DNA from: Lachnospiraceae bacterium AC2012
Lineage (GTDB): Bacteria; Bacillota; Clostridia; Lachnospirales; Lachnospiraceae
Assembly (NCBI GenBank): GCA_000702525.1
Contig: JNIN01000001.1
Coordinates: forward strand, 744,001 to 808,000
Length of the DNA stretch: 64,000 nt
Direction: 5' to 3'
Shown here: positions 31,171 through 46,199 of the stretch, piece by piece
How the letters are laid out: each line of letters opens with the position of its first letter
Numbering within the stretch: position 1 is the first letter of the stretch
Notes under the pieces: model-generated
Told to the model about the DNA's origin: nothing
What the model saw: only the letters and a program-made list of their open reading frames with translations
Databases searched by the model: none
Position numbers and translations under genes: made by a program

Positions 31171-31181
31171 TAACCATACAA

Positions 31182-31216
31182 AAAAGAGTTCACTCATCAT
31201 TTGAGTGAACTCTTTT
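31182..31216. terminator. Bidirectional terminator between CLC and GH36 genes
   Basis: Perfect stem of at least 11 bp, GAGTTCACTCA/TGAGTGAACTC (31186-31196 with 31202-31212), extended by A-run/T-run pairs on both sides. Confidence 0.88.
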
Positions 31217-35215: not shown

Positions 35216-36676
35216 CTACTGATTCTTCATACCCATTGCAATTTTTACAACGTTGTATGCACCATCGTAAAGACCGATGGATTTATTTACCTTAATGGCA
35301 TCACACATTTCTTCCAAAAGATCTGTCTGCATAAACATATCAATCATCTGCAGTGTATGTGGAATATCACGACACTCTAATGTTCCCTCACCCATTTCTG
35401 CCGAATGAATAGCTCCCCACATTTCATGCTTACCAACACGCTTAATAAAGAGCTTTGGTACTGGATAAAATGCCAATTCACTAGGCTTTGTAACAAGAAC
35501 ATCTGCTGCTCTCATCAGAAGGTTTGTAATGTAAACCGCTTCAAAGATATCGGAATGATAGAATCCATGAATACCGGAAACATCCGCATCCAGTGCATCC
35601 TCTGCAAACTTTGATGCAGCTTTAAAATCCTCGAAATGCTCTGTCGCACACGTTCTCATTTCCGGAATCTCTTTGGTTAAATCATCCCAAACATTCTTAT
35701 AATCACCAACATTGACAAAGAGTGTTGCCTTACCATCCTTAATCAATGGAAGTAAGTATTCAATAATGGCAGCGAAGATTTCCTTCTGTGCACCAGCTCC
35801 ACCGATGGTAAGGAGGAATCGCATTGGCTTCTTCGATGCTTTGCGATCCAATCTTCTCTGGCAGTCCACTTCAATATTCGAAACCAGTTCATGGTCGATA
35901 TAATGACCGGTATAGACCAAAGAGTCCTGTGGCATTGGCTTACATACCTTATCCTTATTCATACCGTTTAAGATTCGATAACCCATATATGCATTCTTAC
36001 ACTGAATCGTATGAACAGAACCTTCGGAAAGATGTAATGCCATTGGCCAGTTATCCGGAATGGCATTCACCACATGCTTCATACCTGCATGAATCGCTGA
36101 CTGCGCTGGCCATACATGCGTTCCGATGACTGGAATATCCTTTGGAATATTTCTGTATACCGGCGCCATCAGTTCTGCATTCTTCTGATCCGCTGCATTG
36201 TAGGATAAAGCACGGAATCCTTCATAATTCATTGGTTCCCAAACCAATTTATTAAAGATTGGATTCTTGGACCATCTAGAACCTAAGGAATAGAGGTCAT
36301 TCTGTGCACTGATTACCTTGGTACATGTTGTCTGTGGGAAGGAATTTAAATCCAACCAATATGGTGTATAGCCAAGTGCCTTCGCTGCACTTGCCATCGC
36401 CATAGAGATACGATAATGACCAAATCCCATACGGATATTACTTACAATAATTCCCTTTTCCGTATCGAATGCCTCCGGGCTCTGCCCATCTTCCAGGCGA
36501 ATATCATATACACCCAAAGAATCGCCAATCACCGGATTCTTACGAACAATCGCGTTATAATTCACATTGGAATCATCGCCAAACTTCTTAATATACTTTT
36601 TCTTGGATCGTAATGCCTTTTTATACACCTTATCCGGCATAACATTTCCAAAAATACTTCTAGACTTATCTTGCAT
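35216..36676 (-). CDS. GT-B-like protein of unknown function in the galactoside operon
   Basis: 486 residues, no signal peptide or membrane helix. It resembles GT-B glycosyltransferases of the MurG/diacylglycerol-glucosyltransferase kind: a first strand and glycine loop IIVSNIRMGFGHYRISMA (about 80-97) comparable to their GxGH motif, an inter-domain strand LLTIGGAGAQKE, and DVLVTKPSELAFYPVPKLF near the C terminus, comparable to their nucleotide-sugar site VTKPGG. A HSEGS-like patch (LHLSEGSVHT) lies between. The start overlaps GH2 by 11 bases, so they are translationally coupled. It may make, break or sense a glycoside; no function is known to me. Confidence 0.6.
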   Translation of the reverse strand: MQDKSRSIFGNVMPDKVYKKALRSKKKYIKKFGDDSNVNYNAIVRKNPVIGDSLGVYDIRLEDGQSPEAFDTEKGIIVSNIRMGFGHYRISMAMASAAKALGYTPYWLDLNSFPQTTCTKVISAQNDLYSLGSRWSKNPIFNKLVWEPMNYEGFRALSYNAADQKNAELMAPVYRNIPKDIPVIGTHVWPAQSAIHAGMKHVVNAIPDNWPMALHLSEGSVHTIQCKNAYMGYRILNGMNKDKVCKPMPQDSLVYTGHYIDHELVSNIEVDCQRRLDRKASKKPMRFLLTIGGAGAQKEIFAAIIEYLLPLIKDGKATLFVNVGDYKNVWDDLTKEIPEMRTCATEHFEDFKAASKFAEDALDADVSGIHGFYHSDIFEAVYITNLLMRAADVLVTKPSELAFYPVPKLFIKRVGKHEMWGAIHSAEMGEGTLECRDIPHTLQMIDMFMQTDLLEEMCDAIKVNKSIGLYDGAYNVVKIAMGMKNQ

Positions 36677-39167: not shown

Positions 39168-39749
39168 TTACTTCTGAACCTTGATTCCATCTACCATCAT
39201 ATCTACGAGTTCCGTTAATACCTGACCATAGTTTAGCTGGCTTTTTGCAAGTTCGTCTCCCATTAGGAAACGTTCAATTGCTGCTTCAAATGTAAGCTGG
39301 AACATCAGCTTATCTACCGGACGAAATACACCCGTTTCCATTCCCTCATCCAAGAGAGAGAGCGTCAACTCCCATCCACTTTCCAATCGACTCTGAATCC
39401 TGTCGTAAACCTTAGGATACTTTGTACGAACGGTATAGAGTTCTGTGTAATTTACATCGAGAGAGATTTCCGGAAGCACACCTAAGATATGTTTAAATCT
39501 GACATCAATCGGTAAATCCGCTTCTTTTTTCAAAAGCTGATTCTCTCCTGCTTTTACAGAATCAAAGAAATAATCCACCATCGCGTTAAACAAGCTCTCT
39601 TTGTCCTCAAACACGGTGTAGATGGTCTTCTTACTCATCCCGAGTTCTTTTGCCAAATCATTCATCGTAAATTTAGGTCCTTTACTTTCAGAAACTTTGA
39701 ATGCGGCCTCAATAATTTTGGTTTTAATAGCTAAATTATTTCGATTCAT
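39168..39749 (-). CDS. TetR-family regulator of the sugar operon
   Basis: 193 residues from the ATG at 39749 (AAAGGGAG four to five bases upstream; the frame's earlier TTG is unlikely). HTH at about residues 22-48: FTMNDLAKELGMSKKTIY followed by VFEDKESLFNAMV. The C-terminal ligand domain is not specific. It heads the operon, 54 bases before GH2, and the palindromic sites right upstream suggest that it represses itself and the sugar genes until an inducer is bound. Confidence 0.9.
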   Translation of the reverse strand: MNRNNLAIKTKIIEAAFKVSESKGPKFTMNDLAKELGMSKKTIYTVFEDKESLFNAMVDYFFDSVKAGENQLLKKEADLPIDVRFKHILGVLPEISLDVNYTELYTVRTKYPKVYDRIQSRLESGWELTLSLLDEGMETGVFRPVDKLMFQLTFEAAIERFLMGDELAKSQLNYGQVLTELVDMMVDGIKVQK

Positions 39750-39776
39750 AAATCTCCCTTTCAACCCAATTTTTAT

Positions 39777-39812
39777 CGGAAACCGGAAACCGGATTACTC
39801 GTTTCGGTTTCC
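39777..39812. promoter_or_regulatory. Inverted GGAAAC repeats, likely TetR operator
   Basis: Two GGAAACC half-sites (39778-39784, 39785-39791) face GTTTC (39801-39805) and GGTTTCC (39806-39812) across a 6-10 base centre. On the minus strand they start directly after a TACAAT -10 (39821-39816), so a bound repressor would cover the transcript start of the tetR operon. Confidence 0.65.
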
Positions 39813-39903: not shown

Positions 39904-39949
39904 GGAAACCTCGAAAAATCCGGAAACTTTCGGTGTTTCCAGCGTTTCC
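39904..39949. promoter_or_regulatory. Second cluster of GGAAAC/GTTTCC half-sites
   Basis: Half-sites at 39904-39909 and 39922-39927 (GGAAAC) and 39935-39940 and 39944-39949 (GTTTCC). The inner pair forms the palindrome GGAAACTTTCGGTGTTTCC. About 110 bases upstream of the first operator, between the fliB-like stop codon and its terminator. Confidence 0.55.
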
Positions 39950-41080: not shown

Positions 41081-41102
41081 GGCCACAGCTTATGCTGTGA
41101 CC
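41081..41102 (-). terminator. Terminator of the hyd operon
   Basis: Minus-strand GGTCACAGC pairs with GCTGTGGCC (9 bp, one T-G), loop ATAA, followed by TTTTG. The hydF stop codon TAA lies inside the loop. Confidence 0.7.
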
Positions 41103-42319
41103 CCTAAAATCTCTAAACTTCTATCTAGTATACCATGCATTGCGGCAATTGCCATCCCATAATTTACAATTGGCACCTGATCCCGCTTGCAAATCTTCGT
41201 GCGCCCTTGCATTTCCTGCTCGTTTACCATGCATCCGCCGCAGTGTACCACGAGTTTATACTGCGTGACTTCTTCTGGAAATGTTCCGCCCGACGTAAAT
41301 TCATACTTTGGCTTCACACCCGTAAATTTCTCAATCCACCCCGGCATCTTTACGGTGCCAATATCATTACACTGCCTATGATGGCTGCAGGCTTCGGAAA
41401 TCAAAACAAGGTCTCCATCACGTAGATTCGAAAGCGCTTTCACGCCCTGTAACATGGTTGAAAGAGCGCCTTTATAGCGCGCCATCAGGATGCTAAAACT
41501 GGTCAGATAGATGTCCTTTGGGACGATCGCATCCACTTCCTGAAATGCCTGCGAATCCGTAATCACAACCGCCGGCTTTTTCTTTAAATTTTCAATCGTC
41601 TGCTGTAACTCTGCCGGCTGACAGCAAATCGCACTACAATGATAATCTAGAAGCTCTCGAAGTACCAACTGCTGTGGTAGAATCAGTCTTCCCTTTGGCG
41701 CAGATTCATCCACCGGGATCACGAGAATCACCGTATCTCCCTGCTTTAATCGATCAACAATCAGATACTTCTCCTCTACTTTTGGTTGAAGACGCGAGAG
41801 GCGTTCCTTGCAAGCAAGAATTCCATCTCCCGTCTTTGCACTAACCGCCAAAACATTCGTGCGATCCAGTCCATACTTCTCTAACAGATAATCTTCCAGT
41901 GTCAGATTATCATCCACTTCTGTCTCATCCATATGATTACAAACGATCAGATACGGACGCTTGCCATCGATCAGCATCTGCAAGAACTTCTCTTCCGAAT
42001 CCAAAAGCGTAGCATTTCTACTGTCCAGTACAAGCACTGCGATATCCGTATGGCGCAAAGCTTCCCGCATCTTCTCCACACGGAGTTCTCCCAATTCTCC
42101 AGAATCATCAAATCCCGGTGTATCGATTAAAACGACCGGACCAAGCGGAAGCAGTTCCATCGACTTCTTCACGGCATCCGTCGTTGTCCCCTTGGTATCC
42201 GATACAACCGAAACGCTCTGCGACGCAATCGCATTGACAAGGCTCGACTTCCCGGCATTTCTTAGTCCGAAAAATCCAATGTGGATACGCTCTCCACTTG
42301 GCACATCCATAAGTCCCAT
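41090..42319 (-). CDS. hydF: [FeFe]-hydrogenase maturation GTPase HydF
   Basis: 409 residues. Scaffold that carries the 2Fe subcluster and hands it to the hydrogenase. GTPase domain: Walker A GLRNAGKSSLVN, DTPGFDD, CNHMDE. The C-terminal Fe-S domain keeps the ligands CSHH and, about 55 residues later, HCGGC. Transcribed after hydG (36-base gap). No hydrogenase structural gene is in the window. Confidence 0.95.
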   Translation of the reverse strand: MGLMDVPSGERIHIGFFGLRNAGKSSLVNAIASQSVSVVSDTKGTTTDAVKKSMELLPLGPVVLIDTPGFDDSGELGELRVEKMREALRHTDIAVLVLDSRNATLLDSEEKFLQMLIDGKRPYLIVCNHMDETEVDDNLTLEDYLLEKYGLDRTNVLAVSAKTGDGILACKERLSRLQPKVEEKYLIVDRLKQGDTVILVIPVDESAPKGRLILPQQLVLRELLDYHCSAICCQPAELQQTIENLKKKPAVVITDSQAFQEVDAIVPKDIYLTSFSILMARYKGALSTMLQGVKALSNLRDGDLVLISEACSHHRQCNDIGTVKMPGWIEKFTGVKPKYEFTSGGTFPEEVTQYKLVVHCGGCMVNEQEMQGRTKICKRDQVPIVNYGMAIAAMHGILDRSLEILGVTA

Positions 42320-42355
42320 AGTTATTCTCCCATTCCAAAAAACATAATTCTCCGC

Positions 42356-43804
42356 TTAGAATCGGAAATCTCTTCGATTTGAATTCTTAATTGCTTCAAT
42401 ATTCTCAGCTGCAATCTTTCGAACAGAATCCTTAGTAATCTTCTTTAATTCCTCATCAATCATCTGAAATCCTACTTCTTTTGTCTCCTCAGAAGCATAA
42501 TCTACAAGATATTCCGTCAAAGTCATCAATGCATTTGGATGGCAGCAATTCAAAATCTGTCCATTCTTACAAAGTTCCATAAAGCGGTCACCCGTTCTTC
42601 CGGCACGATAGCAGGCGGTACAGAAAGAAGGAATATGTCCCGTATCCATAAGCCAATGAACGACTTCATCCAATGTTCTCTGGTCGGAAACGTCAAACTG
42701 CTCGGTATCATGTGGACGCTCCTCTTCTGTATATCCACCAACGCTTGTACGAGAACCACCAGAAACCTGGCTGATACCAACGCGAAGCATCTTACGACGA
42801 ACATCCTCACACTCTCTGGTAGAGATAATCATACCGGTATATGGAACGGCAATTCGAATACATGCTGCAATCTTTACAAACATATCATCCGGGATAGAAT
42901 TATCGAAGGCATCCGGATCAATATCATCCGCATGCTTTACTCTCGGAACAGAAATGGTATGTGGTCCCACTCCATGCACTGCTTCGAGATGTTCTGCATG
43001 CATCAGAAGACCTGCAAATTCATATCGATAACTCTGCAGTCCAAATAAAACACCTAAGCCGACATCATCAATTCCACCTTCCATCGCGCGGTCCATCGCC
43101 TCTGTATGATAGGCATAATCATGCTTTGGACCGGTTGGGTGAAGGGATTCATATCCCTCTTTATTGTAGGTTTCCTGGAACAGGATATACGTACCGATTC
43201 CAGCTTCCTTTAACTTCTTATAATTCTCTACAGTGGTTGCCGCAATATTTACATTCACGCGACGAATGTCACCATTCTTATGATGCACATCATAAATCGT
43301 ATGGATACAATCCAGGATATATTCGATCGGATTATTCACCGGATCTTCGCCCGCTTCAATTGCAAGACGCTTATGTCCCATATCCTGCAGCGCAATAACT
43401 TCCTTTCTCACTTCTTCCTGTGTTAGTTTCTTACGTGCAATATGCTTATTCTTCAGATGATATGGACAATACACGCATCCATTCACACAATAATTCGACA
43501 GATACAGCGGCGCAAAAAGAACGATACGATTCCCATAAAATGCTTCCTTAATCTCCTCTGCCACATCGAACATCTTCTGAATTCTAGACTCATCTGTACA
43601 AGCCAAAAGCACGGATGCCTCTCTATGTGTAAGACCGCGACAAACGCAACCATTCTCTGTCTTTACCGGTCTTGCTTTCTCTAATAATGCATCAATCAGT
43701 TCCAGGTTATCCTTGTTCTCATCCGCATATTTTAACGTCTCACGGATTTCCTCGTCACTGATAAATTCTTCTGCTTTTAATGACGTTACATCATACTTTG
43801 CCAT
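42356..43804 (-). CDS. hydG: [FeFe]-hydrogenase radical SAM maturase HydG
   Basis: 482 residues. Cleaves tyrosine to give CO and cyanide for the H-cluster. Radical SAM motif C-x3-C-x2-C in NYCVNGCVYCPYH, and the C-terminal auxiliary cluster motif C-x2-C (CTACYRAGRTG) with a third Cys about 22 residues later (CCHPNA), which together mark HydG rather than ThiH. Middle gene of hydE-hydG-hydF. Confidence 0.96.
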   Translation of the reverse strand: MAKYDVTSLKAEEFISDEEIRETLKYADENKDNLELIDALLEKARPVKTENGCVCRGLTHREASVLLACTDESRIQKMFDVAEEIKEAFYGNRIVLFAPLYLSNYCVNGCVYCPYHLKNKHIARKKLTQEEVRKEVIALQDMGHKRLAIEAGEDPVNNPIEYILDCIHTIYDVHHKNGDIRRVNVNIAATTVENYKKLKEAGIGTYILFQETYNKEGYESLHPTGPKHDYAYHTEAMDRAMEGGIDDVGLGVLFGLQSYRYEFAGLLMHAEHLEAVHGVGPHTISVPRVKHADDIDPDAFDNSIPDDMFVKIAACIRIAVPYTGMIISTRECEDVRRKMLRVGISQVSGGSRTSVGGYTEEERPHDTEQFDVSDQRTLDEVVHWLMDTGHIPSFCTACYRAGRTGDRFMELCKNGQILNCCHPNALMTLTEYLVDYASEETKEVGFQMIDEELKKITKDSVRKIAAENIEAIKNSNRRDFRF

Positions 43805-43871
43805 TTTCTTAAAACCCTTCTTTCCATACTTACATTGGAAATGCTACTGCACCTCCTATATATATATCAAC

Positions 43872-44933
43872 CTATCGTCGATTCCAACCAAATCGATCCC
43901 CACGGTCAATAACCAACTCATAGCCGATGGACTTCATCCGCTGGTCCAAGCAGCCTCTGCACTGGGCAGATTCTTCGCCCGTACAAATCTTATTCTCATA
44001 TAATTCATACTGTTTTCTCACACCCACCGGTGTCAAATTCGGCATCACAACATTGGCACCGGATTCTATGCCAAGTTCTCTTCCCCTTGGATGCATCGTT
44101 CCAAGCGCTGTCGTCGCCGGAAGTAAAATCTCGGGATAAATCAAACGAATCAAAGACAGGAGGAAACAAGTCATCTCCACTGTTCCACTCTTTTCCCCAC
44201 GAAATGGTGTCTCATGATGTACGATATATGGGCCAATCCCACACATATCCGGCTTGAAATCCTCAATAAACTGAAGTTCCATTGCCAGATCCTCCACTTT
44301 CTGATACGGAGGTTCCACCATAAAACCAGCCCCCACCTGATATCCAATCTCCTTTAACGTCCGAAGACAATCCATACGATGCTTCCAGGACATCTCCTCC
44401 GGATGCAATTTCCGATAGAGATCTTCATTCGCTGTCTCATGACGAAGCAAATAGCGATTCGCACCGGCATCAAAAAATGCCTGATAGCTTTCCCGCTCTT
44501 TTTCCCCAATCGACAGTGTAATCGCAACATCACGATGCTGTTCCCTGATCTTACGAACCAAAGAGCAAATGCGATCATCCGTATAATAAGGATCTTCGCC
44601 CCCCTGCAAAACAAAGGTACGAAAACCAAGTTGATATCCTTCTTCTGTGCTCTGTAGAATCTCATCTTCGCTAAGTCGATATCGCTCTACCGTAGCATTT
44701 CCACGACGGATTCCACAATACAGGCAATTGTTTTTGCAAATATTTGTAAATTCAATCAAGCCTCTTGTATAAACAGCATTCCCATAGAAATGCTGCCGCA
44801 CAGCCACCGCTTTCTTTGCCGCATATTCCGCCAACTCATCACTACGATTTTTCAGCAGATAAACATACTCATCAAAAGCTAAATGATGCTCTCGCTCTAA
44901 TTGATCAATATATGCTTTCCCTCTTTGATCCAT
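43872..44933 (-). CDS. hydE: [FeFe]-hydrogenase radical SAM maturase HydE
   Basis: 353 residues from the ATG at 44933 (GGGTGG five bases upstream). Radical SAM protein related to BioB; builds an Fe-S precursor of the H-cluster. Motif C-x3-C-x2-C in NICKNNCLYCGIRRGN, then LQGGEDPYYTDD and GAGFMVEPPYQ. First gene of the maturation operon, with a TATAAT element about 40 bases upstream. Confidence 0.95.
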   Translation of the reverse strand: MDQRGKAYIDQLEREHHLAFDEYVYLLKNRSDELAEYAAKKAVAVRQHFYGNAVYTRGLIEFTNICKNNCLYCGIRRGNATVERYRLSEDEILQSTEEGYQLGFRTFVLQGGEDPYYTDDRICSLVRKIREQHRDVAITLSIGEKERESYQAFFDAGANRYLLRHETANEDLYRKLHPEEMSWKHRMDCLRTLKEIGYQVGAGFMVEPPYQKVEDLAMELQFIEDFKPDMCGIGPYIVHHETPFRGEKSGTVEMTCFLLSLIRLIYPEILLPATTALGTMHPRGRELGIESGANVVMPNLTPVGVRKQYELYENKICTGEESAQCRGCLDQRMKSIGYELVIDRGDRFGWNRR

Positions 44934-45020
44934 AAAAACCACCCTACTGTAATACTCTTAGGTCTCATTATAATACAACCGTTATCGAATTTGTATATTT
45001 TTTAACAATCTTTTTCAGTA

Positions 45021-45077: not shown

Positions 45078-46199
45078 TTAAGCTTCTGCTCTTTCCATAG
45101 CTTCTTCGAAATCCTTTGTTCCCTTGAATACTTCATTAGAGTATGGGTTCTTACCCATTGCAACGGAACGCTTAATAATAACAGAGATACATACAACGTT
45201 AATAACGATTGCACATACTGCAACAAATCCCTGCATTCTAGGATCTGCTGTAATACCCATAGAAGAAATGATTTCGCCAGCCTTAGCTGTCTTTCCTTCT
45301 CCAGCATTGTAAAGTGCAATAGCCTTCTCATAGAGATCCATAGTTGTAATACCGTTTTTAGTAGCTCCACCGTATACAACTGGAAGGGCTGCTGCAAACT
45401 TGCTGCTAAGCTGGAACTGAGGTACAACCTGAGCCCACATACACCAGATTGCAAGTGTGTTTGCACGGTTCTGAATCCAAGCACCCTTGTTCCAGATTGC
45501 ATTTGCAAATGTAGGAGCAAGAAGAAGTGCAACACCGCAATACCATGTATGAGTAGGAAGGTTCAAATAAGTATATTCGAAGTTCCATACATCATATGCA
45601 AGGATAAACCAAATTGTCATATCTGGCCATAACATATCGGACTGATTCTTGTCCTTTGATGTGTAAAGGTGTACACAACCTGTCATACAGAAGATGTTGA
45701 TCATACCTGCGATTGCGTTGAGGATATTCCACCAACCACCGTAGATGAATACACCTTCGTTAGATGCCCACCAAGCACCACTGAAATCACCAGTGATAGA
45801 GTAAGCAGCTAAAGCAGATTCCATATCAGATACATTAGCGATCATGATATTTGCTGCTACGATTAACCAAGGGAACCAAGCGAACCATTTTTCTTTACCA
45901 ATGCCCCACTTATACTTGATCATCATAAAGCCTACGCATCCGATATCAGCTGCATAAAGCTTGAAGTAATGGAACCAACCGTCCATGAATGCTACTGTTG
46001 GGTTTTCGGATCCACCGAACATACCAACATGTGCAAGAATAAAGTAAACTGTAAGAATTACTGGGATGATAACAAATACTACCATTCCACCGACCTTTGT
46101 TCTACGGCCAATTTCATTCATGATAATTAAGCCTGCGAACGCGAGCAACCAGCCTACCAGCTGCATTGTCGCATGGTCACTGTAAAGTTGAAAAAACAT
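45078..46199 (-). CDS. Polytopic membrane protein of unknown function
   Basis: 373 residues, eight or nine membrane helices, very rich in Trp/Tyr/Phe (for example WFAWFPWLIVAANIM, GGWWNILNAIAG, IWFILAYDVWNFEY). No signal peptide, no transport motif I know. The last 40 residues are polar and end acidic (EEAMERAEA), likely cytoplasmic. From memory it resembles the family Pfam calls DUF5692; this was not checked. It has a near-consensus promoter, GGAGGAG ribosome site and a strong terminator, so it is a highly expressed single-gene unit. Function unknown. Confidence 0.75.
   Translation of the reverse strand: MFFQLYSDHATMQLVGWLLAFAGLIIMNEIGRRTKVGGMVVFVIIPVILTVYFILAHVGMFGGSENPTVAFMDGWFHYFKLYAADIGCVGFMMIKYKWGIGKEKWFAWFPWLIVAANIMIANVSDMESALAAYSITGDFSGAWWASNEGVFIYGGWWNILNAIAGMINIFCMTGCVHLYTSKDKNQSDMLWPDMTIWFILAYDVWNFEYTYLNLPTHTWYCGVALLLAPTFANAIWNKGAWIQNRANTLAIWCMWAQVVPQFQLSSKFAAALPVVYGGATKNGITTMDLYEKAIALYNAGEGKTAKAGEIISSMGITADPRMQGFVAVCAIVINVVCISVIIKRSVAMGKNPYSNEVFKGTKDFEEAMERAEA

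Follow-up and report, generated by a model that had tools for sequence, protein, structure and literature searches.

Organization of the Locus

The window, meaning the whole stretch of 64,000 nucleotides that was analyzed, contains on its minus strand an operon whose genes encode, in order, a TetR-family regulator, a GH2 enzyme, a protein made of the domains DUF6937 and DUF6938, a GPH symporter, and a GH36 enzyme, after which a hairpin follows (table 1). With its symporter and galactosidases all in one direction, this is a galactoside-utilization locus. The symporter scored 333 bits against TIGR00792 (cut-off 231) and stayed below the cut-off of the MelB equivalog.

Table 1. Features of the operon and its upstream region, in window coordinates
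Feature	Position	Strand	Basis
Operator dyad GGAAAC-N16-GTTTCC, second copy, before the TetR gene	39922..39949		Window search
Operator dyad GGAAAC-N16-GTTTCC, promoter-proximal, before the TetR gene	39785..39812		Window search
Regulator of the TetR family, heading the operon	39168..39764	-	PF00440, E = 8.5e-11; likewise placed in most loci
GH2 beta-galactosidase-like enzyme, 815 aa	36666..39113	-	Pfam GH2 domains; PDB 5euv/5ldr, beta-D-galactosidase, E = 9e-148
DUF6937-DUF6938 protein, predicted GT-B, GT28-like	35216..36676	-	Pfam, AF2, Foldseek, motif invariance, hhalign
Basic amphipathic helix, residues 15-32 (DKVYKKALRSKKKYIKKF)	36581..36634	-	Charge and hydrophobic moment
GPH (MelB-like) sugar:cation symporter, 492 aa	33663..35141	-	PF13347, E = 6e-63
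GH36 alpha-galactosidase, 784 aa	31257..33611	-	PF02065, E = 3.5e-147; PDB 3mi6, AgaA/AgaB, AgaSK
Terminator-like hairpin GAGTTCACTC-AAATGAT-GAGTGAACTC-TTTTTT past GH36, end of the operon	31180..31212	-	Read by eye

The DUF6937-DUF6938 gene was read as an open reading frame of 486 codons that begins with the ATG at 36674-36676 and has a good Shine-Dalgarno sequence (AGGAGAGGGAGAAAATG). It is not a chance reading frame, because the Pfam scan matched DUF6937 with E = 8e-125 (415 bits) and DUF6938 with E = 2e-114 (382 bits), at a gathering score of 27. These two domains were the only Pfam matches. No NCBIfam model matched the protein, a sequence search of the PDB gave no match, the search for paralogues in its own genome returned this gene alone, and no mention of the names DUF6937 or DUF6938 was found in the literature search. 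An earlier note, made from the letters of this DNA, had the gene overlapping the GH2 gene by 11 bases, and the overlap is indeed present, the start lying inside the end of the GH2 reading frame. The note also took the two genes to be translationally coupled. Across loci, the distance to GH2 ranged from -80 to +157 bp (mostly <30 bp). The exact overlap is not conserved; what the loci share is a close spacing suited to co-transcription, not a strict coupling of translation.

Conservation of the Operon

The neighborhoods of the gene were compared at 99 distinct loci, each with flanks of 4.5 kb or more, and co-directional genes no farther than 6 kb away were counted by tblastn. The GPH symporter was found at 92 of the 99 loci, GH36 at 81, and GH2 at 58; all three were present at 46 loci and none of them at 3. 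Thus, the question whether the gene always travels with GH2 and GH36 is answered by a steady tie to GH36 and the symporter and a frequent one to GH2. A TetR gene was identified at 64 or more of the 99 loci, and GalT or GalK occurred at some. In a divergent group, the order was symporter, another GH36-like enzyme, the DUF protein, and galactokinase. Where all five genes were present, the DUF protein was the most conserved product at 32 of 32 loci, with a median identity to the window protein of 72%, followed by the symporter (63%), GH36 (59%), GH2 (54%), and TetR (44%). The most conserved part of this sugar-uptake operon is therefore the DUF6937-DUF6938 gene.

The combination had been described in the earlier note as no known catabolic module. 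GH36, GH2, and a GPH symporter are an ordinary galactoside-utilization set, and the GT-B member alone is new to it. The galactoside locus LBA1457-1469 of Lactobacillus acidophilus contains a GPH permease, GH2 and GH42 enzymes, Leloir genes, and a TetR regulator (PMC3446993). It thus resembles the window operon in its symporter, beta-galactosidase, TetR-family gene, and Leloir genes, whereas its GH36 lies in a separate ABC-type locus and no GT-B protein is reported, the term glycosyltransferase being absent from that paper (PMC3446993). The fold and the galactoside module were each known already, and the family is catalogued, though uncharacterized; a search outside CAZy turned up no description of fold and module in combination or of DUF6937/DUF6938 as GT28-like.

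Some further genes of the window and of related loci were observed. A DUF5692 membrane protein is encoded at 45078-46199 of the window, and several Pseudobutyrivibrio loci have relatives of it close to the module; for one of these relatives (L056:19680-20792), PF18948 was tested. At 41090-44942 of the window, three genes resemble by eye the FeFe-hydrogenase maturases, in the order HydF, HydG, and HydE. Moreover, several Butyrivibrio loci (L017, L037, L045, L053, and others) have upstream, instead of TetR, a protein of ~361 aa with an HD domain (HD-GYP-like).

Operator Dyad

The dyad, which marks the promoter of the module, was matched twice in the window, both times before the TetR gene, where 0.01 matches were expected. 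Over all loci, GGAAAC-N16/17-GTTTCC was found at 82 sites in 2.6 Mb, against 0 for a shuffled copy. The dyad is probably the binding site of the TetR protein. At loci without an adjacent TetR gene (Butyrivibrio-type), it immediately precedes either GH2 or the DUF gene. The latter placement ties the GT-B gene itself to the galactoside regulon, and the conserved dyad can be used for finding the remaining regulon members.

The dyad was also kept in several of the Butyrivibrio loci with the HD-domain protein. At another locus (L165:9704-12168), two overlapping copies lie ahead of a stand-alone DUF6937/6938 gene, and 2 bases after it begins a gene for a Hydrolase_4 member of the alpha/beta hydrolases (monoacylglycerol-lipase-like), a possible link to lipids. 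At L183:14383-15858, a gene for an MCP-type chemotaxis receptor is located between the dyad and TetR, which suggests chemotaxis toward the same sugar.

Fold and Family Assignment

A structure of the protein was predicted with AF2 from an alignment of 63 members (pLDDT 93.2, pTM 0.92); prediction from the single sequence gave a pLDDT of 36. In the Foldseek search of the PDB with this model, the best match was the Arabidopsis monogalactosyldiacylglycerol (MGDG) synthase MGD1 (4wyi, E = 1.4e-7), and its UDP complex (4x1t) ranked seventh. There were 56 PDB matches at E <= 0.001, and among the matches listed nearly all were GT-B enzymes using UDP- or NDP-sugars. The whole-chain rmsd was large, so the likeness is one of fold, not of detail. 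A viral structure library yielded generic glycosyltransferases alone, with poor TM-scores. The GT-B fold expected in the earlier note was thus borne out by a confident model with MGD1 at the top, and no other fold emerged; the concern that the protein might fall into a characterized family with another function did not materialize either, its sole family in Pfam being one of unknown function.

The note had likened the motifs to those of MurG and diacylglycerol glucosyltransferases, and these two halves fared differently. The diacylglycerol side was supported by Foldseek and by hhalign, which aligned the family with UgtP-type proteins at a probability of 72.8% (E = 3e-5), with the distant bridge protein described below left out. 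MurG was rejected as the closest relative (hhalign probability 0.8%), and so was the UDP-GlcNAc 2-epimerase of the WecB type (PF02350 proteins, 0.5%). The genome encodes a separate protein with PF04101. Together, profiles and model favor the lipid-glycosyltransferase branch (MGDG synthase/UgtP) over MurG or the UDP-GlcNAc epimerases.

Within this branch, the protein would be a GT28-like outlier, as it fails the GT28/MGDG sequence models: the Pfam scan reported neither PF06925 (MGDG_synth) nor PF04101 (Glyco_tran_28_C) at E <= 1. The GxGH loop of the GT28/MGDG synthase family is kept, MGxGH being invariant in all 63 members, whereas the donor loop KPGG/KAGPGT..E is not of the usual length; TKPSE aligns with it at the Glu and is ~5 residues short (hhalign). 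MGD1 and the window protein share the GT-B fold, the GxGH loop with its His, a GGxG strand, and a Glu at the UDP-ribose position. Unlike MGD1, to which it is 12-13% identical, the window protein has no PF06925 match, a shorter PG loop, an extra conserved N-terminal region of 75 residues, and a place in a bacterial galactoside operon. UgtP and the processive diacylglycerol glucosyltransferases (PRK13609, 9wde) resemble it at the profile level but differ in having another operon and KPGG..E in place of KPSE, and they gave no sequence match.

Direct sequence and profile searches of the PDB with the DUF6937-DUF6938 family alone gave nothing meaningful. A profile search detected a distant relative of 25% identity (L159:7898-9208), here called the bridge protein, with close copies in 8 of 8 genomes of its own family. 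These bridge proteins (L159, L217-L224) matched DUF6938 (E = 1e-15), a diglucosyl-diacylglycerol-synthase model (about 1e-6), and 9wde (E = 2e-4), and in hhalign their profile reached 98% with the window family and 95.5% with UgtP. Because they match both sides, they link the DUF6937-DUF6938 family to the UgtP branch, and their neighbors provide a lipid context. The bridge gene adjoins a 3-ketodihydrosphingosine reductase gene in 7 of 8 genomes examined (L159:7898-11494, L217-L224), and a serine palmitoyltransferase gene where the sequence coverage reaches. The bridge protein itself is likely a sphingolipid glycosyltransferase.

Candidate Active Site and N-Terminal Helix

The three motifs pointed out in the earlier note were all found in the chain: MGFGHYRIS at 83-91, TIGGAGA at 290-296, and VTKPSE at 395-400. 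Invariant in all 63 members, including the bridge protein, were M83, G84, G86, H87, and R89, the stretches G292-A296 and T396-E400, and likewise the G-x-HE at 415-418. In MGD1, which depends on anionic lipids, His155 of the equivalent GxGH loop is described as the catalytic base (PMC7419546). By analogy, H87 is a candidate catalytic base. In the alignment with UgtP, E400 falls on the conserved ribose-binding Glu and the HE pair lies beside the GCE/GQE of UgtP-type proteins; E400 is thus a candidate ligand of the UDP ribose, and H417-E418 are candidate ligands of the donor sugar.

The first 75 residues, which are absent from the bridge protein, hold the conserved basic amphipathic helix. Its net charge is +8 in the window protein and +6.6 on average in 62 members, and its hydrophobic moment is 0.57 versus 0.24 in shuffles (p = 0.006). 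It could bind anionic membranes, which is no more than suggestive. The retained GxGH His and this helix count in favor of the transferase reading proposed below.

Proposed Function

Based on the fold, the branch, the conservation of motifs, and that of operon and operator, all of which are observed, we tentatively regard the protein as a galactoside-induced, inverting GT-B transferase of UDP-hexose, probably UDP-galactose, standing as an outlier to MGDG synthase and UgtP and most likely acting on a lipid; we hold this to be the leading reading and put it somewhat short of an even chance. The roles of the residues, UDP-galactose as the donor, the forward direction, and the lipid acceptor are what we infer from these observations. 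The operon would be controlled by the TetR protein, and the GPH symporter would bring in a galactoside, from which GH36, often with GH2, would free galactose. The Leloir enzymes would convert it to UDP-galactose, to be spent by the DUF6937-DUF6938 enzyme. This enzyme, cytosolic and possibly membrane-peripheral, would pass a hexose, most likely the galactose of UDP-galactose, with inversion to a hydroxyl of the acceptor, with His87 of the N-terminal MGFGH loop as the base, Glu400 of TKPSE holding the UDP ribose, and His417-Glu418 the donor sugar. The acceptor would most likely be a lipid such as diacylglycerol; the branch, the neighbors of the bridge family, and one helix are the only grounds on which a lipid is thought likelier than a sugar.

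Several points count against this proposal. A biosynthetic transferase within a catabolic operon uses up the galactose that the operon gains, the matches to PF06925 and PF04101 are absent, and, compared with UgtP, the PG loop from KP to E lacks ~5 residues. Replacement of the classical MGDG_synth/UgtP enzymes by the DUF protein found no support either: classical MGDG_synth proteins occurred in 4 of 64 genomes with the gene versus 13 of 80 (Fisher p = 0.07, and p = 0.18 for the good genomes), a slight and nonsignificant depletion.

Since the operon company is purely catabolic, the strongest rival, which deserves serious weight even though we consider it rather unlikely, is that the enzyme runs in the catabolic direction and splits an imported galactoside with UDP or phosphate into UDP-galactose or galactose-1-phosphate, saving ATP. 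Its substrate might be a beta-galactoside remaining after GH36, such as galactosylglycerol; reversal of inverting chemistry on a beta-galactoside would give an alpha-galactosyl product for the Leloir pathway. Consistently, the gene travels with an importer and an alpha-galactosidase, not with biosynthetic genes, and GH2 is missing from ~40% of the loci, which leaves room there for a different enzyme to act on the beta-galactoside. Two trehalose transferases that use NDP-sugars, 6zjh and 2x6q, were also among the fold matches. The latter is TreT, the trehalose glycosyltransferring synthase, which is encoded in an operon with a sugar transporter, is reversible, and can split trehalose; however, TreT is a retaining enzyme of the GT4 type with other motifs, and it is less similar than MGD1 to the window protein. 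The invariance of E400 and a fold like that of MGD1 point instead to a nucleotide-sugar donor, GT-B phosphorylases (GT35, GT4 type) accounted for 0 of the 50 best fold matches, and a UDP-driven reversal from an ordinary beta-galactoside is energetically unfavorable. In a more specific form, to which we give less credence still, an inverting galactoside phosphorylase or UDP-dependent splitter would feed the Leloir pathway with galactose-1-phosphate or UDP-galactose and work with GH36 on mixed alpha/beta-galactosides, for instance the head group of plant galactolipids. Plant galactolipids, with their digalactosylglycerol head group, are abundant in forage, and an operon with both an alpha- and a beta-galactosidase would be well matched to this head group as a possible substrate. 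A literature search on the use of galactosylglycerol or galactolipids by gut bacteria gave nothing on a DUF6937-DUF6938 enzyme.

A transferase of UDP-sugars whose acceptor is small and soluble (glycerol, inositol, or a sugar) and whose product would be a compatible solute, a store, or an inducer sensed by TetR, ranks behind both catabolic forms and is improbable in our judgment. It would agree with a chain in which neither a transmembrane segment nor a signal was apparent by eye, with a TetR regulator whose operator is strongly conserved, and with the GT-B gene encoding the module's best-conserved product; the nearest relatives, however, act on lipids, and the basic amphipathic helix is conserved. 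Finally, a GT-B fold serving as a nucleotide-sugar epimerase or hydrolase, or as a noncatalytic UDP-sugar sensor, seems very improbable: UDP-GlcNAc 2-epimerases share the fold and were among the Foldseek matches (3dzc, 3beo, 1f6d), but their hhalign probability is the 0.5% given above, and GxGH, KPSE, and the HE pair are invariant, as in an active transferase.

Distribution and Implications

Whole-genome searches within the organism's own bacterial family detected the gene in 64 of the 397 genomes sampled, about one in six; for the phylum, the figure was 5 of 398 sampled genomes. Among the sampled genomes of the class, 19 of 391 were carriers, one of them with the distant bridge protein. The GTDB genome collection gave at least 574 stretches with relatives, 80 of which were kept. 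These 80 were mostly from Lachnospiraceae (Butyrivibrio, Pseudobutyrivibrio, and Roseburia-like MAGs), together with single contigs labeled Sharpea, Oscillospiraceae, Spirochaetales, and Muribaculaceae, some of which may be mis-binned. Members of the main group were 62-90% identical to the window protein, those of the divergent group 50-56%. Many carriers are rumen and gut bacteria, and outside Lachnospiraceae the gene is sporadic. If the enzyme makes a galactolipid, dietary galactosides would directly reshape the membranes of these bacteria; if it is run backwards, it would open a new energy-saving route for galactosides, possibly from plant membranes. One homologue (L026:9374-10957) carries within DUF6938 an extra in-frame stretch of ~30 residues with a high content of Asn, Asp, and Ser.
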